A DNA stretch of 64,000 nt from Streptomyces sp. NRRL B-1347 (lineage in GTDB: Bacteria > Actinomycetota > Actinomycetes > Streptomycetales > Streptomycetaceae), in NCBI RefSeq assembly GCF_000720325.1, contig NZ_JOJM01000004.1, forward strand, positions 62,001 to 126,000, read 5' to 3'. Below the pieces are notes generated by a model. The model had not been told where the DNA came from and searched no databases. It worked only from the letters and a program-made list of their open reading frames with translations. A program made the position numbers and the translations under genes. Below are positions 869 to 10,686 of this stretch, piece after piece; the stretch's first letter is position 1, and every line of letters starts with the position of its first letter.

Positions 869-1879
869 ATGACGACATCGACGGCATCAACAACATCGCC
901 GACATCGACGCCTCCGACGGCACCGCCGGGCGGCATCCCGGCCGAGGCCGACTGGGACAGGGCACCCTCACTCCTGGAGGGCGCCGAGACCCTTGAACTC
1001 ACCCCGGCCCGCTGCAATTTGCGGTACTGGCTCAACGCCGTGCCGCAGGGCACGCTGCGCGGCCGCGACCTCGGCCACGACGACGACGTACGACCGCTGG
1101 ACGCGGTCACCAGGCCCGGCCCGCTCAACAGCGCGCTCACCCAGGAACTCGCCTACCGCTCGGTCGCCGAGGACAAGGCCACCCGGGCCATCGGCTACAT
1201 GACGGCACTCGCGCCGGACACCGACACCATGGAGTTCTACGCCACCCAGCTCATCGACGAGGCCCGGCACGCCATGGTGTTCCGCAGCCACCTGCTCGAC
1301 CTCGGCGTGCCCCAGGAGGAGCTGTTCGCCACGGTGGAGCGCCTTTCGGCCACCGACCGGGAGCGCATCCTCGTCCCCCTGGAGAACCTGGGGCTGCGGG
1401 TGCTGCGCGACGAGCGCGACTTCGTCGGCGGCGTCCTGGTCCTGACCGTCCTGGTCGAAGGAGTGCTGGCACCGGCCGCCGAACTCAGCGAGCGCAAGTG
1501 GCGGGTCTTCGACCCGGCCGCAGCCGACATCGAACGGGGCGCCGTAATCGACGAGATCCGGCACCTCACGGTCGGCAGCGCCGTCGTCCGTGACCACCTG
1601 CGCCGGAACCCGCACGACAAGGAGCGCCTCCTGGAGCTGATCCGGGAGGGCTACGCGCTGTGGGACAAGCTGCCGACGACCGAGCAGCTGATGCGCCGCG
1701 AGGAGCTCTTCCAGCAGGGCGTCGACGAGCATCGCGACCTGCTGGGCGACTACGAGATCTGGCCCGGCCGCCGCCTGGCCGACACCACCGCGGTGGAGCG
1801 CCTGGAGACCGGTCACGCCTGGGCCGCCCGCATGCAGCGCACCAGGCTGGCCCACATGGGCCTGGAGGAGGCGACATGA
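869..1879 (+). CDS. VlmB-like ferritin-fold diiron oxygenase
   Basis: This 336-residue protein carries the ligand set of a carboxylate-bridged diiron four-helix bundle: Glu101 (VAEDKAT), Glu131/His134 (DEARH), Glu198 (LVEGVL) and Glu229/His232 (DEIRH). The first 25 residues are Thr/Ser/Pro-rich and probably disordered. Both the pattern and the position after a flavin reductase fit VlmB, the diiron protein of azoxy biosynthesis, which is thought to oxidise a hydrazine-type intermediate to the azoxy group. A RBS-like AAAGGA lies upstream of the ATG at 869. The stop overlaps the desaturase start by ATGA, so the genes form one operon. The substrate is inferred from context; another N- or C-oxygenase role is possible. 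Confidence 0.75.
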   Translation: MTTSTASTTSPTSTPPTAPPGGIPAEADWDRAPSLLEGAETLELTPARCNLRYWLNAVPQGTLRGRDLGHDDDVRPLDAVTRPGPLNSALTQELAYRSVAEDKATRAIGYMTALAPDTDTMEFYATQLIDEARHAMVFRSHLLDLGVPQEELFATVERLSATDRERILVPLENLGLRVLRDERDFVGGVLVLTVLVEGVLAPAAELSERKWRVFDPAAADIERGAVIDEIRHLTVGSAVVRDHLRRNPHDKERLLELIREGYALWDKLPTTEQLMRREELFQQGVDEHRDLLGDYEIWPGRRLADTTAVERLETGHAWAARMQRTRLAHMGLEEAT

Positions 1880-4008: not shown

Positions 4009-4251
4009 ATGAGCAGCACGTACGACCGTCTTGTGGGCCTGCTGGCCAAGGGCTTCGGCGTCGAGCCGGGCGAGGTCGCCGCCGACGACACCTTCGAGGG
4101 CCTTGAACTGGACTCACTGGCCCTGGTGGAGCTGACGCTCGCCGTGCAGGAGGAGTTCGGCGTCACCCTCACCGACGACGACCTCCAGGCCAAGAACACC
4201 CTGGCGGACGCCGCCGAGGTCCTGGACGCGAAGCTGGTGGCGCTGCGATGA
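4009..4251 (+). CDS. Acyl carrier protein
   Basis: This 80-residue acidic protein has the 4'-phosphopantetheine attachment serine in LELDSLALVEL. It starts at ATG 4009 behind a good ribosome binding site (GAGGAG, 6 bases away). Its stop overlaps the KAS II start by ATGA. It lies between KAS III and KAS II genes and presumably carries the growing acyl chain for those enzymes and for the desaturase. Confidence 0.95.
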   Translation: MSSTYDRLVGLLAKGFGVEPGEVAADDTFEGLELDSLALVELTLAVQEEFGVTLTDDDLQAKNTLADAAEVLDAKLVALR

Positions 4252-5486
4252 CCTGGGCCGATGGCCGGTTCGACGCGGCGGTCACGGGCATCGGCATGGT
4301 GACCCCCGCCGGTCTCGGCACCGCCGCGTCCTGGGACCGCATCGCCGCGGCGGACGGCACCGCCGCGGCGAGCGTGCCCGCCCTCGCCGGGATCCGCGCC
4401 GACTTCGGCTGCTGGATACCCGGCTTCGACCCGGTGGCCGCGGTGGGCAGGCGCAAGGCCTGGCGCCTGGACCGCAGCAGCCAGCTCGCGCTCGCGGCGG
4501 CGGCCGAAGCCCTCGCCGACGCCGGTCTCGACCCCGCGAGCTGGGACGGCGCCAGGGTCGGCGTGGTGCTCGGCAGCGGCATCGGCGGGGCGTCGGCCTG
4601 GGAGCGACAGCACCACGTCCTGCGGGACCACGGCGCCGAGAAGGTCTCCGCCCTGTTGATCCCGATGCTCGCGGTCAACATGGCGGCCGGCTACATCGCC
4701 ATCGAGACCGGCGCCCGGGGGCCCAACTTCGTGACCGCCACGGCTTGCGCCTCCGGCGCCACGGCGATCGGCCAGGCGCGTGAACTCCTGCGCGGCGGGC
4801 GCTGCGACGTGGTGATCACGGGCGGCACCGAGGCCTGCCTCATCCCCTCGATCATCTCCGGCTTCCAGCAGATGGGCGCGCTCTCCGCACGCCGCGACCA
4901 ACCCACCGCCGCGTCCCGGCCGTTCGATGTGGACCGGGACGGCTTCGTGCCCGCCGAGGGCGCCGCCGTCCTGGTCCTGGAGCGCCCGGAGAGCGCACGG
5001 GCCCGCGGGGCCCGGGTCCGCGCCCGTGTCAGCGGCTACGGGGCATCGGCCGACGCCCACAACGCCACCGCGCCGGAACCCGGCGGCGCCGGAGCGGAGC
5101 TGGCGCTGCGGGCGGCCCTCGACGACGCCGGGCTCACCCCGGACGCGGTGGACCACGTCAACGCGCACGGCACCTCCACACCGCTCAACGACCTGATGGA
5201 GGCCCGCCTGATCCGGCGGATGTTCGGCGACCGGCCGTCGGTGACCTCCGTGAAGGGGGTGACGGGCCACTCCCTGGGCGCCGCAGGGGCGATCGAGGTG
5301 GCCGTCACCGCCCTCACCCTGGAGAAGGGCCTCGTACCACCGACCGCGAACCTCACCAGCCAGGATCCGGAGATCGATCTGGACGTCGTCACCAAGGCCG
5401 CGCGGCCCGCCGACGTACGGGTCGCCGTCAGCAACTCCTTCGGATTCGGCGGGCAGAACGCCGTGGTGCTGCTGACCCGCGCCTGA
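4248..5486 (+). CDS. Beta-ketoacyl-ACP synthase II (FabF-like)
   Basis: This 412-residue KAS I/II enzyme has an active-site Cys167 in TACASGA, the first His in NAHGTSTPLND, and Lys and second His in VKGVTGHSLGAAG. The C-terminal NSFGFGGQN is also typical. It elongates acyl-ACP with malonyl-ACP. The length and single-domain form match stand-alone FabF enzymes, not chain-length-factor partners, and all catalytic residues are present. It closes the + strand operon: the stop is followed by three 20-base repeats and a strong hairpin before the convergent ferritin-like gene. Confidence 0.93.
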   Translation: MTWADGRFDAAVTGIGMVTPAGLGTAASWDRIAAADGTAAASVPALAGIRADFGCWIPGFDPVAAVGRRKAWRLDRSSQLALAAAAEALADAGLDPASWDGARVGVVLGSGIGGASAWERQHHVLRDHGAEKVSALLIPMLAVNMAAGYIAIETGARGPNFVTATACASGATAIGQARELLRGGRCDVVITGGTEACLIPSIISGFQQMGALSARRDQPTAASRPFDVDRDGFVPAEGAAVLVLERPESARARGARVRARVSGYGASADAHNATAPEPGGAGAELALRAALDDAGLTPDAVDHVNAHGTSTPLNDLMEARLIRRMFGDRPSVTSVKGVTGHSLGAAGAIEVAVTALTLEKGLVPPTANLTSQDPEIDLDVVTKAARPADVRVAVSNSFGFGGQNAVVLLTRA

Positions 5487-5590: not shown

Positions 5591-6706
5591 TCAGTCCTCG
5601 TCGCCCGTGCTCAGCCGCCCCTCGGCGATCGCGTGGTCGACCTCGCGCGTGCGCGCCTCGAGTTCGCGGCGCTCGATGTCCAGCGCCTCGGCCTGCGCCT
5701 CGTCCGCCTCCATGAGCTTGAGCAGGTCACGGTCCGCCATCTCCAGCACGCCCATGGCGGCGTAGGCCTGCTGGACCTTCGGCCCCCACAGGCCGATGTC
5801 CTTGACGCAGGGCACGATCCGGGTGAAGAGCCGCGAACGGAAGGCCCGCATGCGCGGACCGCGGTGCATGTACTCCATGCACTCCTTCATGTCGAAGCCG
5901 AGCGTCTCCCACACCTCCTGCATGCGCAGCCGGTCACGCATCAGATAGCAGCCCTCGACGACGAAGTCCTCGCGGTCGGCGATCTCCCGGCTGGTCAGGC
6001 CCTGGTAGTAGTCCCGCAGCGCGAGCCGGCCGAAGGCCACGTGGCGCGCCTCGTCCTGCATGACGTAGGAGAGGATCTGCTTCGGCAGCGGCTTGTCCGT
6101 CCGGTCGCGCAGAATGCCGAAGGCCGCGAGGGCGAGGCCCTCGATGAGCACCTGCATCCCGAGGTACGGCATGTCCCAGCGGGAGTCGTTGAGGGCCTGT
6201 CCCAGCAGGGACTTGAGGTGCGGACTGATGGGATAGCTCATCCCGATCTTGTCGTGGACGAAGCGGGTGAACAGCTCCGCGTGCCGCGCCTCGTCCATCA
6301 CCTGCGTCGCCGCGTAGAACTTGGAGTCGATGTCCGGCACCGACTCGACGATCCGGGCGGAGCAGATCATCGCCCCCTGCTCGCCGTGCAGGAACTGGCT
6401 GAACTCCCAGGCGGCCATGTGCTGTCGCAGCTCCTGCTTCTCCTTGCGGTTCAGCCGTGCGTACTGCCGTGATCCGTACAGCGCGAGGGTGTTCTCCGGG
6501 GTGCCGAGGACGTCATAGGGGTCCACGTCCAGGGACCAGTCGATCCGCTTCGTGCTGTCCCACTGCTTGTCCTTGCCCTTCTGGTAGAGGTTCAGCAATC
6601 GCTCGCGATCCGTGCCGTACTCCCAGGTGAACGTGTTCCGCCCCTGCATCGGGAACGACCAGGCGGTGCTGGTGTCCACGTGCGGGCTTTCGGCGGTACC
6701 GCTCAT
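5591..6706 (-). CDS. Second ferritin-like diiron protein
   Basis: This 371-residue protein has a second complete diiron ligand set: Glu109 (HGEQGA), Glu139/His142 (DEARH), Glu189 (LIEGLA) and Glu219/His222 (QDEARH). The spacing is that of a ribonucleotide-reductase-like or ferritin-like oxygenase. The C-terminal 50 residues are charged and helical. It is longer than, and clearly different from, the VlmB-like protein at 869-1879. It begins with ATG at 6706 behind GGGGA and ends against the shared terminator. Proteins of this shape do N-oxidations, hydroxylations or oxidative cleavages. In this cluster it could act on the fatty chain (for example, in making an amine or alkene) or on nitrogen; the sequence does not decide. 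Confidence 0.8.
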   Translation of the reverse strand: MSGTAESPHVDTSTAWSFPMQGRNTFTWEYGTDRERLLNLYQKGKDKQWDSTKRIDWSLDVDPYDVLGTPENTLALYGSRQYARLNRKEKQELRQHMAAWEFSQFLHGEQGAMICSARIVESVPDIDSKFYAATQVMDEARHAELFTRFVHDKIGMSYPISPHLKSLLGQALNDSRWDMPYLGMQVLIEGLALAAFGILRDRTDKPLPKQILSYVMQDEARHVAFGRLALRDYYQGLTSREIADREDFVVEGCYLMRDRLRMQEVWETLGFDMKECMEYMHRGPRMRAFRSRLFTRIVPCVKDIGLWGPKVQQAYAAMGVLEMADRDLLKLMEADEAQAEALDIERRELEARTREVDHAIAEGRLSTGDED

Positions 6707-6744: not shown

Positions 6745-7683
6745 TCAGGAATGCCCGGGCGGGGAGAGGACCGGCAGCACTCCCGGCAGGACGTCGAGGA
6801 CCAGGCGCGGGTGGCCGCGCAGTACCTCGCCGTCGCGTTCGAAGGGCAGCGGAGCGCCGTCGGTGCGGGCGATCTCGATGCGGCGGCCGCGCCGGTAGAG
6901 CACTTCGGGCCGTTCGACGTGGCGCCCCTCGCGGGTCAGGCCGGGCAGCTCCCTGGCGTCGAGGGCGCTGGTGACCACGCAGACGTCGAGCAGGCCGTCG
7001 TCGAGGACGGAGTGGGGGAGGACGAGGAACCCGCCGCCCCGGTAGCGGCCTCCGCCGACGTTGGCGAGGACCACGCCGCCGTCGTGGATCACCTCACCGT
7101 CGACGACGACGCGTGCCGGGTGCGGTACGAAGTCCCGCAGGGTGGCGGCCACCGCCTCCTGGTAGCGGGCGCGGCCGGTGAGCCGGGTGAGCCCCGCGGC
7201 CGTCTCCAGGGCCTCGGCGACGAGACCGGAGCAGGCGCCGAGCAGCACGGTCTCCCGGGTCTCCGCGATGCGCGCCACGTCGAGGCGCCGCACCGGAGGC
7301 CGCGCGGTGCCGAAGGCGAGAGCGAGGGACTCCTGCCAGGAGCGGTCCTGCCACACCTCCTTGTAGAAGGAGTTGCCCGTACCCGCCGGGACGCAGAAGA
7401 GCGCCGGGCCGCCGTGCCCCGGCCCGGCGTCCGCCGCGGTCACGAGGCCGTGCGCCACCTCGCTCGCCGTGCCGTCGCCGCCGACCGCGAGCACGGCGTC
7501 CGCGCCGTCCTGCGCGGCCTTCGCGGCGAGCGTGCGGGCGTGCCCCGGATACGCGGTCCGGACCACACTCACCTCCGCGACGAGCCGACGGCACGCGGCG
7601 GCGACGTCGCCGACCGGAAGCGAGGCCGCCCCGCCCGCCCTGTCGTTCGCCACGATCACTGCGGTGCCTGCCCAGTGGCTCAT
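6745..7683 (-). CDS. Diacylglycerol kinase-like (YegS/BmrU family) lipid kinase
   Basis: This 312-residue protein has the catalytic-domain signature of this kinase family, VGGDGTASEVAHGL, then a GTGNSFYKE nucleotide-loop motif and a C-terminal beta-sandwich half. Family members phosphorylate a hydroxyl group on a lipid or lipid-like acceptor with ATP. It lies 38 bases upstream of the ferritin-like gene on the same strand. In valanimycin biosynthesis the homologous VlmJ phosphorylates the serine-derived hydroxyl so that phosphate can be eliminated. With the VlmB-like and flavin reductase genes nearby, a VlmJ-type role is a reasonable inference. An ordinary lipid kinase is the alternative. Confidence 0.8.
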   Translation of the reverse strand: MSHWAGTAVIVANDRAGGAASLPVGDVAAACRRLVAEVSVVRTAYPGHARTLAAKAAQDGADAVLAVGGDGTASEVAHGLVTAADAGPGHGGPALFCVPAGTGNSFYKEVWQDRSWQESLALAFGTARPPVRRLDVARIAETRETVLLGACSGLVAEALETAAGLTRLTGRARYQEAVAATLRDFVPHPARVVVDGEVIHDGGVVLANVGGGRYRGGGFLVLPHSVLDDGLLDVCVVTSALDARELPGLTREGRHVERPEVLYRRGRRIEIARTDGAPLPFERDGEVLRGHPRLVLDVLPGVLPVLSPPGHS

Positions 7684-7777
7684 GCTTGCTTCCTTGTCCG
7701 AGTCAGGAATGGCCGAACGGGCGCTCCGACGCCGGGAGGCGCCCCGGGGGAGCGGCGGGCATGGCGCCGCCGAGGGC

Positions 7778-7867
7778 GGAGAGAGCAGGATTCGAACCTG
7801 CGTGAGGCATGCACCCCTGGCCGAAGACGGACTCCGGCCCCCATTGGGCCGCTATGGGTATCTCTCC
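7778..7867 (-). tRNA. Aberrant class II (serine-type) tRNA-like gene
   Basis: Read on the - strand, 7867 to 7778 folds as a tRNA. There is a perfect 7-pair acceptor stem (GGAGAGA with TCTCTCC), T at position 8 and A at 9, D-stem CCCA/TGGG, and a long variable arm (AGGGGTGCATGCCTC). The T-arm is perfect (GCAGG, loop TTCGAAT, CCTGC). The following base is G, the discriminator of serine tRNAs; CCA is not encoded. The odd part is the anticodon arm. It can pair 8 base pairs with a 5-base loop TCCGT, or form a 7-base loop GTCCGTC that would place CCG at the anticodon with a T at position 37. No serine codon fits CCG. It is either a decayed tRNA-Ser or a specialised one. It lies about 95 bases upstream of the lipid kinase on the same strand. 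Confidence 0.7.
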
Positions 7868-7917
7868 TCGCCGACCTCCGCGGCCGACACGAAGACCATG
7901 ACACCCCCGACTTGCAG

Positions 7918-7943
7918 CCCGCTGAAACGGAGGTCTCAGCGGG
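7918..7943. terminator. Hairpin between the acyltransferase fusion gene and the tRNA-like gene
   Basis: CCCGCTGA at 7918-7925 pairs with TCAGCGGG at 7936-7943 around a 10-base loop. It lies 35 bases past the stop of the large - strand gene at 7978 and before the tRNA-like gene, so it would separate the two transcription units. Confidence 0.65.
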
Positions 7944-7977
7944 GGCGTTCCGGGTGGGCCCAGCGCGGCGACGCCGG

Positions 7978-10686
7978 TCACAGCCAGCGGACCGTCCGTG
8001 TCACCCGGGTCACCACCGCCGCATAGCCCACGCCGACCGCGAGCGAGGCGGTCAGGGCGGTGACGGGGAAGTCCTCCTGGAGGCAGGGGTATATCTGGTA
8101 GTGCGTCAGGTAGATGTAGAGGGAACTGCTCGCCAGGAGGCCCGCGAGGGTGCTGAGGGGGCCGAGGCTGGGCAGGGTCGGTACCCAGATCAGCAGGCAC
8201 AGGCCGACGATCACGATGGTCGTGCGCAGGGGCTGGTCCTGGAACACGCCGGGCACGGTGAGCAGCAGCACGGCTGTCAGGAGCGCCCGGTGCCGCGCGG
8301 TGCGGGCCCGCGCGGCCGCCCACCCGAGCGTGAACAGCCAGAAGACCACGGTCGGGCTCAGCTGGGGGCGCAGCGATGCCAGGTCCAGGAGGTCGTAGCG
8401 GCCCACCAGGCCGACGGCCGTGAGTGCCAGCGGTACACCGAACTCGTAGCGCCGCTCCATCCGGTCCAGGAGGGGCACGGCCATGAGCGCGGCGAGGACG
8501 ACGAGGAAGTAGACCAGGGCCTCCACGAACCAGTAGGCCCAGTCGAAGCGGTCGTTCCCCGCGTCGAGCAGGCTGTTGAGCAGCACGGCGTTGGCCGGGT
8601 CGTAGAGGTCGGTCAGGAGCACCGCCCCGGAGATCCACACCATGCTCGGCACCGCGATGCGGGCGATGGTGCGCCACACGTGCCGCTGGCGCTCGCGGCG
8701 CGTGGCGTCGGTGAGTTGGAAGCGGGCGAAGTTGTAGCCGGCGACGCAGATGAGGACGTGGGCGAAGCCCTTGATGTCGAAGAGCCGGATGTGTGAGCCG
8801 ACGATGAGGACGATCCCGACGGCGCGCAGGGCGATGCCGGTTTCCAGAGTGCGGCGGGTTCGCCAGCACCCTGGGGTGACCCAGGAGCTCAGCACCCTGT
8901 GGAGTGCCGGAGTCGGCCGGTCGTGGCGCGGCTCCCGCCCATCCCCTGCATCAGCCGGGGGCGCCGCCGTGGCGCGCAGTTCGCGGATCGGCCGCCGGTG
9001 CCAGTCGGTGGGCAGATGGCCGAGTGCTTCCTCCAGGCGCAGGGACATCTCCACGTAGCACAGCGAGTCTCCGCCCAGACTGACGAAGCTGCTGTCCTCC
9101 GTGACATCGGTGTGGTCGAGGACGTCCGCGTAGAGACGGCGGAGGTCCTGCGCGGGGTCGGCGGGTGTCTCGTCCTCCGCGGGGCGTGTCCATTGCCGTA
9201 CGGCCGTGTAGTCGGGCTTGCCCGTGGCCAGCCGGGGGAGCCGATCCAGGACCCTGACCCGTACGGCGCGGGACGGCAGCCCGCACTCCTTCGCGACGAG
9301 CCGCCGGATCCGTGCCTGCTCACCGGCGCTGGCGAGCGCGGCCACCGCGAGGACCTCGCCGTCGCCCGCGCAGTACGCGGTGACCCCGTGCCGCTCCAGC
9401 AGGGACTCGACGCGCTGCGGGTCGATCCGCAGCCCGAGGATCTTCGTGAAGCGGCTGCGGCGGCCCACGATCTCGTACAGCCCGTCGGGTGCGCGCCGGG
9501 CGATGTCCCCGGTCAGCAGCTCCTCCACGGCCCGGCCGAGGGCGAGGTCGGCCGGGCGCTCGGCGTAACCGAGCATCACGTTCGGCCCCGAGTAGACCAG
9601 TTCGCCCACGTCCTGACCGTGGCCCTCGACCGGCCGCAGCCGGAAGGAGCCGCCGGGTATCGGCACCCCGACGGCTTCCGGGCGCTCGGCCGCGAGCTGG
9701 GGCGGGAGGTAGGCCATGCGGGCCGTGGCCTCGGTCTGGCCGTACATCACGAACAGCTGCCAGCCCGCACGGTGCCCCAACTCGGCGTACCGGGCGACGC
9801 GTTCGGGCGCGAGGCGGCCCCCGGCCTGGGTGACGCGACGCAGCCGCGGCAGGTCCATCCGCTCGAAGCCGACCCGGTCGAGCAGGTCGAAGGTGTACGG
9901 CACGCCTGCCAGCGAGGTGCCGCGGCCCGCGCGGAACTCCTCCCAGAAGGCCGCGTCGGACACCGACCGCTCGGTGAGGATCAGCCCGGCGCCGCACAGC
10001 AGATGGCTGTGGATGACGGACAGGCCGTAGCAGTAGTGCATGGGCAGCGTGGTGGCCGCCCGGTCCGTGTCGTCGAGGCCGAGGTAGGCGGCTATGGACT
10101 CGGCGTTGGCCTGGAGGTTGTTGTGGGAGAGCCGGACCAGCTTGGGCGAGCCGGTCGAGCCGGAGGTGCTCAGGAGCAGAGCGAGGTCAGGGTGGAGGGC
10201 GTGGGTGCTGCCCCGGTGCCTCTCGTCGAGGGTCCACGTCCCGTCGGCCTCCGGGCGGGCCACGACGTCGGGGGCGTACGCCTGTGTCAGTGAGCGGATG
10301 GTGCTCTCGCTGTCGCCCGGGACGAGCAGCACGGGGTGACCGGCGGACAGGGCGGCCAGATACGTGACGAGCGCGTCGGCCCGATGGGCGCCGGTCAGCA
10401 GCACAAGGCGCCGTACGGGCCCGAGGATCTCGGCGGTCGCGGTGACCCTCTCGGCCAACTCGCTGTACGACACCTGTCCTTGAGGCGTGATGAGGGCGAC
10501 GTGCTCGCTGTGCGCCGCGAGTCCATGCGCGAACGGCACACCCTGCGGCGGCCCGGTCCGTACATGCCGCATCGGAGGCGAGTCCGGGACGGCCGAAGGC
10601 GTGCGAAGTGAAGGCGCGGCATGGGGAGTTGAGGCCGATGAGGGGCCGGGGGCGGGGGCCGGGTGGGATTCGGAGGGGTAGAGCAC
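7978..10686 (-). CDS. Adenylation-carrier protein-membrane acyltransferase fusion
   Basis: This 902-residue protein has three parts. Residues about 45-500 are an AMP-binding adenylation domain with STSGSTGSPK, MYGQTEATA, LTGDIARR and a C-terminal RLATGKPDY lysine motif. About 515-580 is a carrier domain with its serine in LGGDSLCYVEM. From about 610 to the end is an acyltransferase-3 (OafA-like) membrane domain with many hydrophobic segments. The arrangement suggests that one polypeptide activates an acid, holds it as a thioester and transfers it to an acceptor at the membrane. The first 45 residues are Pro/Ser-rich. The GTG start at 10686 is chosen for the AGGAAAGG upstream; an internal ATG near 10570 is possible. 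It is divergent from an iron transporter with an iron box between, so iron control and a siderophore- or envelope-linked role are likely. The substrate is unknown. Confidence 0.85.
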   Translation of the reverse strand: MLYPSESHPAPAPGPSSASTPHAAPSLRTPSAVPDSPPMRHVRTGPPQGVPFAHGLAAHSEHVALITPQGQVSYSELAERVTATAEILGPVRRLVLLTGAHRADALVTYLAALSAGHPVLLVPGDSESTIRSLTQAYAPDVVARPEADGTWTLDERHRGSTHALHPDLALLLSTSGSTGSPKLVRLSHNNLQANAESIAAYLGLDDTDRAATTLPMHYCYGLSVIHSHLLCGAGLILTERSVSDAAFWEEFRAGRGTSLAGVPYTFDLLDRVGFERMDLPRLRRVTQAGGRLAPERVARYAELGHRAGWQLFVMYGQTEATARMAYLPPQLAAERPEAVGVPIPGGSFRLRPVEGHGQDVGELVYSGPNVMLGYAERPADLALGRAVEELLTGDIARRAPDGLYEIVGRRSRFTKILGLRIDPQRVESLLERHGVTAYCAGDGEVLAVAALASAGEQARIRRLVAKECGLPSRAVRVRVLDRLPRLATGKPDYTAVRQWTRPAEDETPADPAQDLRRLYADVLDHTDVTEDSSFVSLGGDSLCYVEMSLRLEEALGHLPTDWHRRPIRELRATAAPPADAGDGREPRHDRPTPALHRVLSSWVTPGCWRTRRTLETGIALRAVGIVLIVGSHIRLFDIKGFAHVLICVAGYNFARFQLTDATRRERQRHVWRTIARIAVPSMVWISGAVLLTDLYDPANAVLLNSLLDAGNDRFDWAYWFVEALVYFLVVLAALMAVPLLDRMERRYEFGVPLALTAVGLVGRYDLLDLASLRPQLSPTVVFWLFTLGWAAARARTARHRALLTAVLLLTVPGVFQDQPLRTTIVIVGLCLLIWVPTLPSLGPLSTLAGLLASSSLYIYLTHYQIYPCLQEDFPVTALTASLAVGVGYAAVVTRVTRTVRWL

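Follow-up and report, generated by a model that had tools for sequence, protein, structure and literature searches.

What does a tRNA do when it keeps the parts that a synthetase recognises and appears to have lost its anticodon loop? The question is raised by a minus-strand gene in a 64,000-nt stretch of DNA from Streptomyces sp. NRRL B-1347 (hereafter the window), which lies beside a cluster resembling those for azoxy compounds. A sequence-only reading had seen in it a serine-type tRNA that lost decoding and feeds biosynthesis. The co-occurrence with VlmA and the covarying stems described below support this view, and we consider it highly probable that what is encoded here is a serine tRNA without decoding function, dedicated to carrying the seryl group for VlmA-type transferases. 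The gene and its parts are as follows.

7777..7867, minus strand: putative non-decoding class II (serine-type) tRNA gene, from the fold, a pattern match (G000:C4:69777-69867) and a family-model score of 112.5 bits
7861..7867, minus strand: 5′ strand GGAGAGA of the 7-bp acceptor stem, from the fold; 6/7 acceptor pairs are invariant in 85 distinct rows of the family alignment
7840..7858, minus strand: D-arm CCCAU-AGCGGCCCA-AUGGG with the loop GG retained, from the fold; D-loop GG occurs in 88/88 unique elements
7819..7839, minus strand: middle (anticodon-position) arm, 8-bp stem and 5-nt loop UCCGU, from the fold and covariation
7804..7817, minus strand: long variable arm, 5 bp and a 4-nt loop, typical of class II, from the fold and the family alignment
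7785..7801, minus strand: T-arm GCAGG-TTCGAAT-CCTGC with A51-U63, from the family alignment
7777..7784, minus strand: acceptor 3′ strand UCUCUCC and discriminator G73, CCA unencoded, from the sequence
7868..7940, minus strand: conserved 5′ flank with an inverted repeat GCTGAGAC..GTTTCAGC, from an alignment of six loci

Element nucleotide p corresponds to window position 7868-p (nucleotide 1 is 7867, G73 is 7777, length 91 nt), which places the acceptor at 1-7 with 84-90, the D-arm at 10-28, the middle arm at 29-49, the variable arm at 51-64 and the T-arm at 67-83. RNA folding returned a cloverleaf with a 7-bp acceptor, 5-bp D, 8-bp middle, 5-bp variable and 5-bp T stem (-45.5 kcal/mol, z -3.0 against shuffles). 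The long variable arm, the G73 and an acceptor/T branch of 7/5, seen in the window fold and in the aligned family, are those of a serine-type class II tRNA; tRNA-Leu and tRNA-Tyr of the same genome carry A73, the element and tRNA-Ser G73. The acceptor stem, T-arm, variable arm and G that had been called perfect are borne out by the fold, but CCA is unencoded and the interval proposed for the gene, 7778-7867, omits G73. In the window G73 is followed by CCC; CCA is likewise unencoded in 3/4 ordinary tRNA-Ser genes of the genome and is encoded in 12/88 unique family members.

The middle arm, GGCCGGAG-UCCGU-CUUCGGCC, folds into eight pairs around a five-base loop, just as the sequence-only reading had it, in place of the canonical 5-bp anticodon stem and 7-nt loop. 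When one inner G-C pair opens the loop becomes 7 nt, which is how ARAGORN draws it in a forced call of tRNA-Arg(CCG). The CCG read earlier from that loop is thus present in the window but is not conserved, the nominal anticodons of the window gene and its six first-found relatives being CCG, TCA or TCG. As a folding control, three of the four ordinary tRNA-Ser genes of the genome gave a 7-nt loop, and the GGA gene gave 8 bp and a closed 3-nt loop. Because the fold alone also closes tRNA-Ser GGA, the closed loop of the element rests on covariation and not on a single-sequence fold.

The 5′ flank common to six loci spans about 73 nt, with a 22-nt insertion in one, and the genes farther upstream vary between the loci looked at. 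That the flank is kept despite differing upstream genes suggests that the element has its own transcription signals, and the flank (7868..7940, minus strand) is a candidate promoter or leader of the tRNA gene. A scan around the element gave no sigma-70-like match and no terminator-like site in 7600-8100.

Standard models pass the element over. In an Rfam scan no family reached its gathering threshold, and the Rfam tRNA model found 66 tRNAs in the whole genome, with the element absent among them. The best match on the element strand, still under its threshold, was tRNA-Sec with 26.9 of the 47 bits required. Like tRNA-Sec (RF01852) the element is class II, of the SerRS-charged type and endowed with a long middle stem; unlike tRNA-Sec it has a 7-bp acceptor stem, and UCA is not conserved. 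We rejected tRNA-Sec identity on the score and on the absence of the extended acceptor/T branch and of UCA. ARAGORN labels two family members (L010:2266-2358 and L013:2463-2555) tRNA-SeC(TCA), and genomes could therefore receive false credit for a selenocysteine tRNA. Present tools (ARAGORN, Rfam) thus miss or mislabel such genes. On the other strand, RF04351 (Plastid-psbl-rps4 3′UTR) matches antisense to the tRNA at 7777-7835 (+) with E=0.0013, under the cut-off; antisense tRNA-Ser sequence may be part of that model.

The genome (10.2 Mb, 362 contigs) holds a single copy of the element. Beyond that copy the best matches span 17-24 nt, and neither sequence matches nor a comparison with tRNA-Ser revealed a close parent-like tRNA-Ser. 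The four ordinary tRNA-Ser genes (GCT, TGA, CGA and GGA), found among ten long tRNA genes that were fetched, score 38-52 bits on the family model described below, against 112.5 bits for the window gene, which itself belongs to the seven sequences that built the model.

Relatives were sought with a 20-base pattern, which yielded six further Streptomyces loci and one chance match (L011). Across these seven elements the acceptor, D- and T-arms are identical or almost so, and changes in the middle arm are compensated. A covariance model built from the seven sequences, and then an exact acceptor plus T-arm pattern, were run over 392 Streptomyces genomes. The model reported 53/392 genomes at E<=1e-6 (10 candidates scored per genome), and in this search G047 and G184 (49-50 bits) were left out, on their scores, as lying at the level of ordinary tRNAs; the exact pattern matched 49/392 and a reversed control pattern none. 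The 97 matches that were aligned score 61-115 bits, with one at 51.8, and several pattern-confirmed copies score 55-61 in the 392-genome model search. Beyond the genus, 19 loci other than the window were inspected from a class-level search of 374 genomes. Three (L204-L206) are true elements, from Streptomyces G654 and G516 and from G653 of another family, and the other 16 (L207-L222) are ordinary tRNA-Ser of up to 63 bits, so bit score alone cannot part the family from the tRNA-Ser of other genera. G653, the sole true element genome outside Streptomyces among the inspected class-level loci, has three tandem copies next to a SerRS-like gene and VlmA about 25 kb off. An order-level pattern scan matched 37/372 genomes, all Streptomyces, and 0/22 genomes of other genera.

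Copy number runs from 1 to 13 per genome (13 in G327, 12 in G365). Tandem arrays, at a spacing of about 96-156 nt, occur as well as copies dispersed over the chromosome, and no recognisable common neighbour gene was found for the dispersed copies in the three genomes examined (G365, G388, G003). G327, G365, G003, G033, G282, G388 and G954 hold 8-13 or more scattered copies each, and G954 has mirror-image copy sets near 0.14 Mb and 8.13 Mb on one contig.

The family is under selection as a folded RNA. In the 85 distinct rows of the 97 matches 96.1% of cells are paired, identical rows being counted once (L009/L017 and L013/L019 carry the same elements). Double-changed cells number 186, where shuffles give 46.9 and structures displaced by 1-3 columns give 3-31; the alignment leans towards the model structure, having been fitted to it. 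The middle stem has double changes at 8/8 pairs with 93.5% of cells paired, in keeping with the expectation that its substitutions would covary and not be random; its innermost pair closes the loop and is maintained in 77/80 cells, with six pair types in use. The first seven sequences alone gave a weak signal (2 double-changed cells; 39/500 shuffles as high), and an independent fold of 12 B-type members showed double changes at six pairs. Unconstrained folding of the region from D- to T-arm gave two hairpins in 88/88 unique elements. The loop of the first is 3-6 nt in 87 of these and 7 nt in one, and its size is even in 42, in which opening of pairs cannot yield a 7-nt loop in that hairpin. 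The 3- or 5-nt loops of another 45/88 members could open to 7 nt by pair breakage.

If the element serves biosynthesis, its company matters. The cluster around it comprises the following genes.

6745..7683, minus strand: VlmJ-like protein of lipid-kinase fold (PF00781/PF19279), the next gene downstream of the tRNA, from Pfam; homologues also come directly after the element at other loci
5591..6706, minus strand: AurF-family (PF11583) N-oxygenase-like protein, from Pfam
869..1879, plus strand: VlmB-like protein by homology, with 48% identity to the part of plasmid NZ_CP108456.1 that is annotated 'VlmB-like protein'
4248..5486, plus strand: beta-ketoacyl synthase of the cluster, from Pfam
C4:55954-56973 (L006:10954-11973), left of the window: VlmA-like PF09924 transferase, about 13 kb from the element

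Also left of the window are genes for an aldehyde dehydrogenase, a class III aminotransferase, a VlmK-like MmgE/PrpD protein and a protein that we take to be VlmH-like from an acyl-CoA-dehydrogenase-type match. The cluster is thus of VlmA type, with a PF09924 transferase and VlmH-, VlmB-, VlmJ- and VlmK-like partners; VlmO- and VlmR-like partners were not identified by name in it, and the VlmB-like protein has no Pfam match of its own. Homologues of the AurF-family protein, 76-91% identical, occur in element loci L009, L010, L012, L016, L017 and L021. A 902-aa frame with AMP-binding, carrier and acyltransferase-3 domains (7978-10686, minus strand) adjoins the tRNA. According to extracts of PMC9379638, on azodyrecins, VlmA is PF09924 and VlmJ/VlmK are PF19279/PF03972, SerRS genes lie near some VlmA groups, and the ady cluster includes no aminoacyl-tRNA synthetase gene.

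With the VlmA-like protein of this cluster as query, 80 of the same 392 genomes have a close VlmA-like gene (E<=1e-50). The element pattern occurs in 49 of these 80 and in 0 of the 312 others (Fisher p=1.7e-41, relatedness ignored), so that conservation of the gene beside vlm-like clusters, which the earlier reading had asked for, is found. Two genomes that have the element by the covariance model alone, G168 and G300, fall outside the 80 and have a diverged VlmA at a distance of 2-3 kb, in loci that also hold VlmJ-like, aminotransferase and GDSL genes. VlmA is also present in G654, G516 and G653 from the class-level search; of the element genomes newly found at order level, G516 and G654 are those in which it was checked. 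A tree with 80 VlmA rows groups the carriers in a single 50-row clade (SH-aLRT 98), in which 47 rows have the element and three lack it (G337, G086, G073), and label changes number 3 against 25 in shuffles; labels are per genome, not per locus, the row of L148 (G236) was dropped as a broken read-off and G123 was left out. G303 has two VlmA copies with the element near one, and the second copy, among the 30 rows outside the clade, bears the label solely on account of the first. Among the genomes searched the element therefore co-occurs exclusively with one VlmA clade. The 31/80 VlmA genomes without it belong nearly all to other VlmA clades, and VlmA chemistry thus does not require the element in general.

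Seryl-tRNA synthetases provide a further link. Each of the 51 element genomes has one or more SerRS that score at least 82 bits on PF02403 and were regarded as housekeeping. An extra SerRS was assigned to the system in 27/51: 26 diverged enzymes of 24-41 bits on PF02403 (two under the family cut-off) and a second SerRS of 80 bits beside the element of G373. Of these 27, 24 share a contig with VlmA at a distance of 5-28 kb. Relative to the SerRS of the window genome, 19/20 aligned SerRS loci are 25-34% identical in the N-domain and 40-44% in the core, and the twentieth, that of G373, is 56% and 74% identical. The remaining 24/51 element genomes have no extra SerRS assigned. Across the 51, some further copies of 54-86 bits were left unassigned. 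Further SerRS copies of 69-86 bits stand beside the best-scoring one in G388, G117, G365 (with an internal stop), G373, G169, G146, G113, G168 and G093; these could be resistance copies or duplicates, and that of G373 alone is linked to an element.

One annotated relative illustrates the layout. In plasmid NZ_CP108456.1 (Streptomyces sp. NBC_01267) serS is followed by genes for ACP, KAS III, a VlmB-like protein, a hypothetical protein, SRPBCC, an aminotransferase, acyl-CoA dehydrogenase, aldehyde dehydrogenase, MmgE/PrpD and diacylglycerol kinase, then by a gap in which no gene is listed and by DUF2156 (VlmA). The gene table of this record contains no RNA genes, and in G358:C2, whose coordinates match it, the element sits in the gap before DUF2156. 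The window genome has a single SerRS and its own cluster none, and the housekeeping enzyme would therefore have to charge the element. An additional class II synthetase core (PF00587, a 449-aa frame at G000:C4:269841-270464) lies 200 kb from the window, outside the PF02403 matches.

How, then, might the RNA work? We propose that it is transcribed and charged by SerRS, in the window genome by its single one, which would recognise the RNA by its G73 acceptor end and its long variable arm; in many relatives a second, cluster-encoded SerRS would perhaps do so. As a closed hairpin stands in place of the anticodon loop, the charged RNA should not read codons and would be excluded from the ribosome. 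The uniform T-stem pair A51-U63 should weaken EF-Tu binding. The VlmA-like enzyme of the cluster would then transfer the seryl group to an alkyl-hydroxylamine, en route to a presumed azoxy product. A51-U63 is found in 85/85 distinct model-found rows and G51-C63 in 26/26 ordinary actinobacterial tRNA-Ser examined, a count that is partly circular, since this T-arm is fixed in the pattern and favoured by the model.

Several known systems offer comparisons. In the non-proteinogenic tRNA-Gly of Staphylococcus aureus the anticodon arm is of ordinary form; the element, by contrast, has apparently lost its anticodon loop, and it is also tied to a biosynthetic cluster and accompanied by an extra SerRS in about half of the genomes. 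Like the element as proposed here, those tRNA-Gly feed a non-ribosomal aminoacyl transferase (for the pentaglycine bridge of the cell wall) and carry A51-U63, described in extracts of PMC4052509 as a weak EF-Tu pair; unlike it they have lost GG18-19. Allo-tRNAs (Soll group) resemble the element in being serine-type class II tRNAs with non-serine nominal anticodons that are known by sequence. Their acceptor/T branch is 8/4 or 9/3, and this sets them apart from the closed-loop family studied here, whose branch of 7/5 in window and relatives led us to reject allo-tRNA identity. According to part of PMC7609411, where the 8/4 form is described, allo-tRNAs are usable in translation. Finally, tRNA-Other of Bacillus cereus, a pseudo-tRNA, is a tRNA-like RNA with a role outside decoding, and we know of no link between it and a biosynthetic transferase.

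In valanimycin biosynthesis Ser-tRNA donates its serine to a hydroxylamine by the action of VlmA, and an extra SerRS, VlmL, is present; the extracts describing this (PMC4052509, PMC9379638, PMC11705231) mention no dedicated tRNA, and one describes the way in which Ser-tRNA is diverted from translation as unknown (PMC4052509). The chemistry of VlmA, VlmO and VlmB is treated in PMC11705231. The element is thus a candidate for the missing third partner of a VlmA/VlmL-type system. A dedicated tRNA in such clusters goes unmentioned in the portions covered of PMC9379638, PMC4052509, PMC7609411, PMC12945691, PMC6662830 and PMC11705231, of which PMC6662830, the S. rochei genome paper, gives in that portion tRNA gene counts only. 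A search of one open-access library found no description of such an RNA.

Other explanations must be set against this one. A tRNA-Ser decayed after duplication or integration would account for the lost anticodon loop and for the nonsense anticodons that ARAGORN returns, but it is at odds with covarying stems, an acceptor stem and T-arm that are nearly invariant across the family, a genome without a parent-like tRNA-Ser and the strict tie to one VlmA clade. The compensatory changes exclude decay for the family, the earlier doubt about it was well placed, and we give a pseudogene hardly any credence. Nor do we expect an odd translating tRNA, that is, a missense or nonsense suppressor of allo-tRNA-like kind that inserts serine at non-serine codons. 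Such a tRNA is extremely improbable given short and often even-sized loops, a closing pair that covaries, the lack of any conserved anticodon, a C preceding the nominal anticodon in some members (L009, L015) and a branch that is neither 8/4 nor 9/3. What speaks for it is that CCG, TCG or TCA are readable in some members, that about half of the loops could open and that allo-tRNAs with non-serine anticodons work in translation (PMC7609411, in part).

The gene could instead act in cis, as a tRNA mimic in the leader of the vlmJ (or vlmA) transcript that is bound by SerRS or senses uncharged tRNA. Here placement is informative. The element is at times directly upstream of a VlmJ-like gene, as in the window, and that gene often begins about 40-150 nt downstream on the same strand; a conserved 5′ flank precedes the element. 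The distance to vlmA in the 49 genomes is <0.5 kb in 24, <5 kb in 2, <20 kb in 12 and 22-32 kb in 3, with the two on different contigs in 8. Elements also follow closely after the methyltransferase gene of an AurF/AMP-ligase operon (L012; similarly in L013, with AurF beyond the locus edge), on the strand opposite to vlmA, in tandem or scattered. In G117, G033, G302 and G146 the fetched VlmA locus has no element and the copies are on other contigs; the four copies of G117 are all on a second contig, none near its VlmA. Such varied placement fits a trans-acting RNA better than a leader, a leader has no obvious need of an intact G73 acceptor stem and T-arm, and the lack of a terminator-like site in 7600-8100 adds to this, leaving the cis reading improbable. 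A dedicated non-ribosomal tRNA with a cargo other than serine, or serving an aminoacyl transfer other than the VlmA step, is also very doubtful. Serine as the transferred residue is a prediction from sequence features, and the VlmA loci of several multi-copy genomes have, in the stretch fetched, no matches at E<=1e-5 to the window cluster's vlmH, aminotransferase and aldehyde dehydrogenase, so that some products may not be classic azoxides; moreover, an azodyrecin VlmA homologue is proposed to take alanyl-tRNA (extracts of PMC9379638). Against it, serine is indicated by the co-encoded SerRS and by a long variable arm together with G73. A serine carrier for VlmA faces counterpoints of its own, namely the tRNA-Ser GGA loop that also closes and the window loop that becomes 7 nt if one G-C pair opens, the VlmA genomes and three clade rows without an element, the lack of a SerRS in the window's cluster and of an assigned extra one in 24 element genomes, the GG18-19 retained unlike in S. 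aureus tRNA-Gly (PMC4052509, in part), an A51-U63 count partly built into the search, copies on contigs other than the VlmA locus and dispersed copies that share no neighbour.

Compared with the earlier reading, the VlmA clade structure, the co-encoded SerRS, the uniform A51-U63 and the multi-copy and tandem arrays are additions. On balance we lean towards a private aminoacylation line in which a non-decoding tRNA, often its own SerRS with a diverged tRNA-binding domain, and its own transferase have coevolved, orthogonal to translation, with the tRNA gene amplified in some Streptomyces to roughly a dozen copies, dispersed or in tandem, to raise supply. A chargeable but non-decoding tRNA would answer directly how Ser-tRNA leaves translation, and would be a natural case of a tRNA selected without decoding. 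The element would also help genome mining by marking VlmA clusters of one clade, and the system is possibly a ready orthogonal SerRS/tRNA pair.

Lastly, we searched VlmA loci without the element for a substitute. The family model and ARAGORN, with Rfam for L125, L126 and L128, gave no convincing alternative element at these loci. Three ARAGORN calls were discarded: that in L134 is by sequence an ordinary 75-nt tRNA-Lys, that in L136 overlaps a VlmB-like coding match and that in L127 has no cloverleaf fold. L107-L123 form a separate VlmA clade (17 rows) of vlmA-vlmH-like operons in which the element is absent. In the stretches fetched for them, VlmJ/VlmK-like matches (E<=1e-12) and ARAGORN tRNAs were both lacking, and this clade is a candidate for the use of a different amino acid donor.
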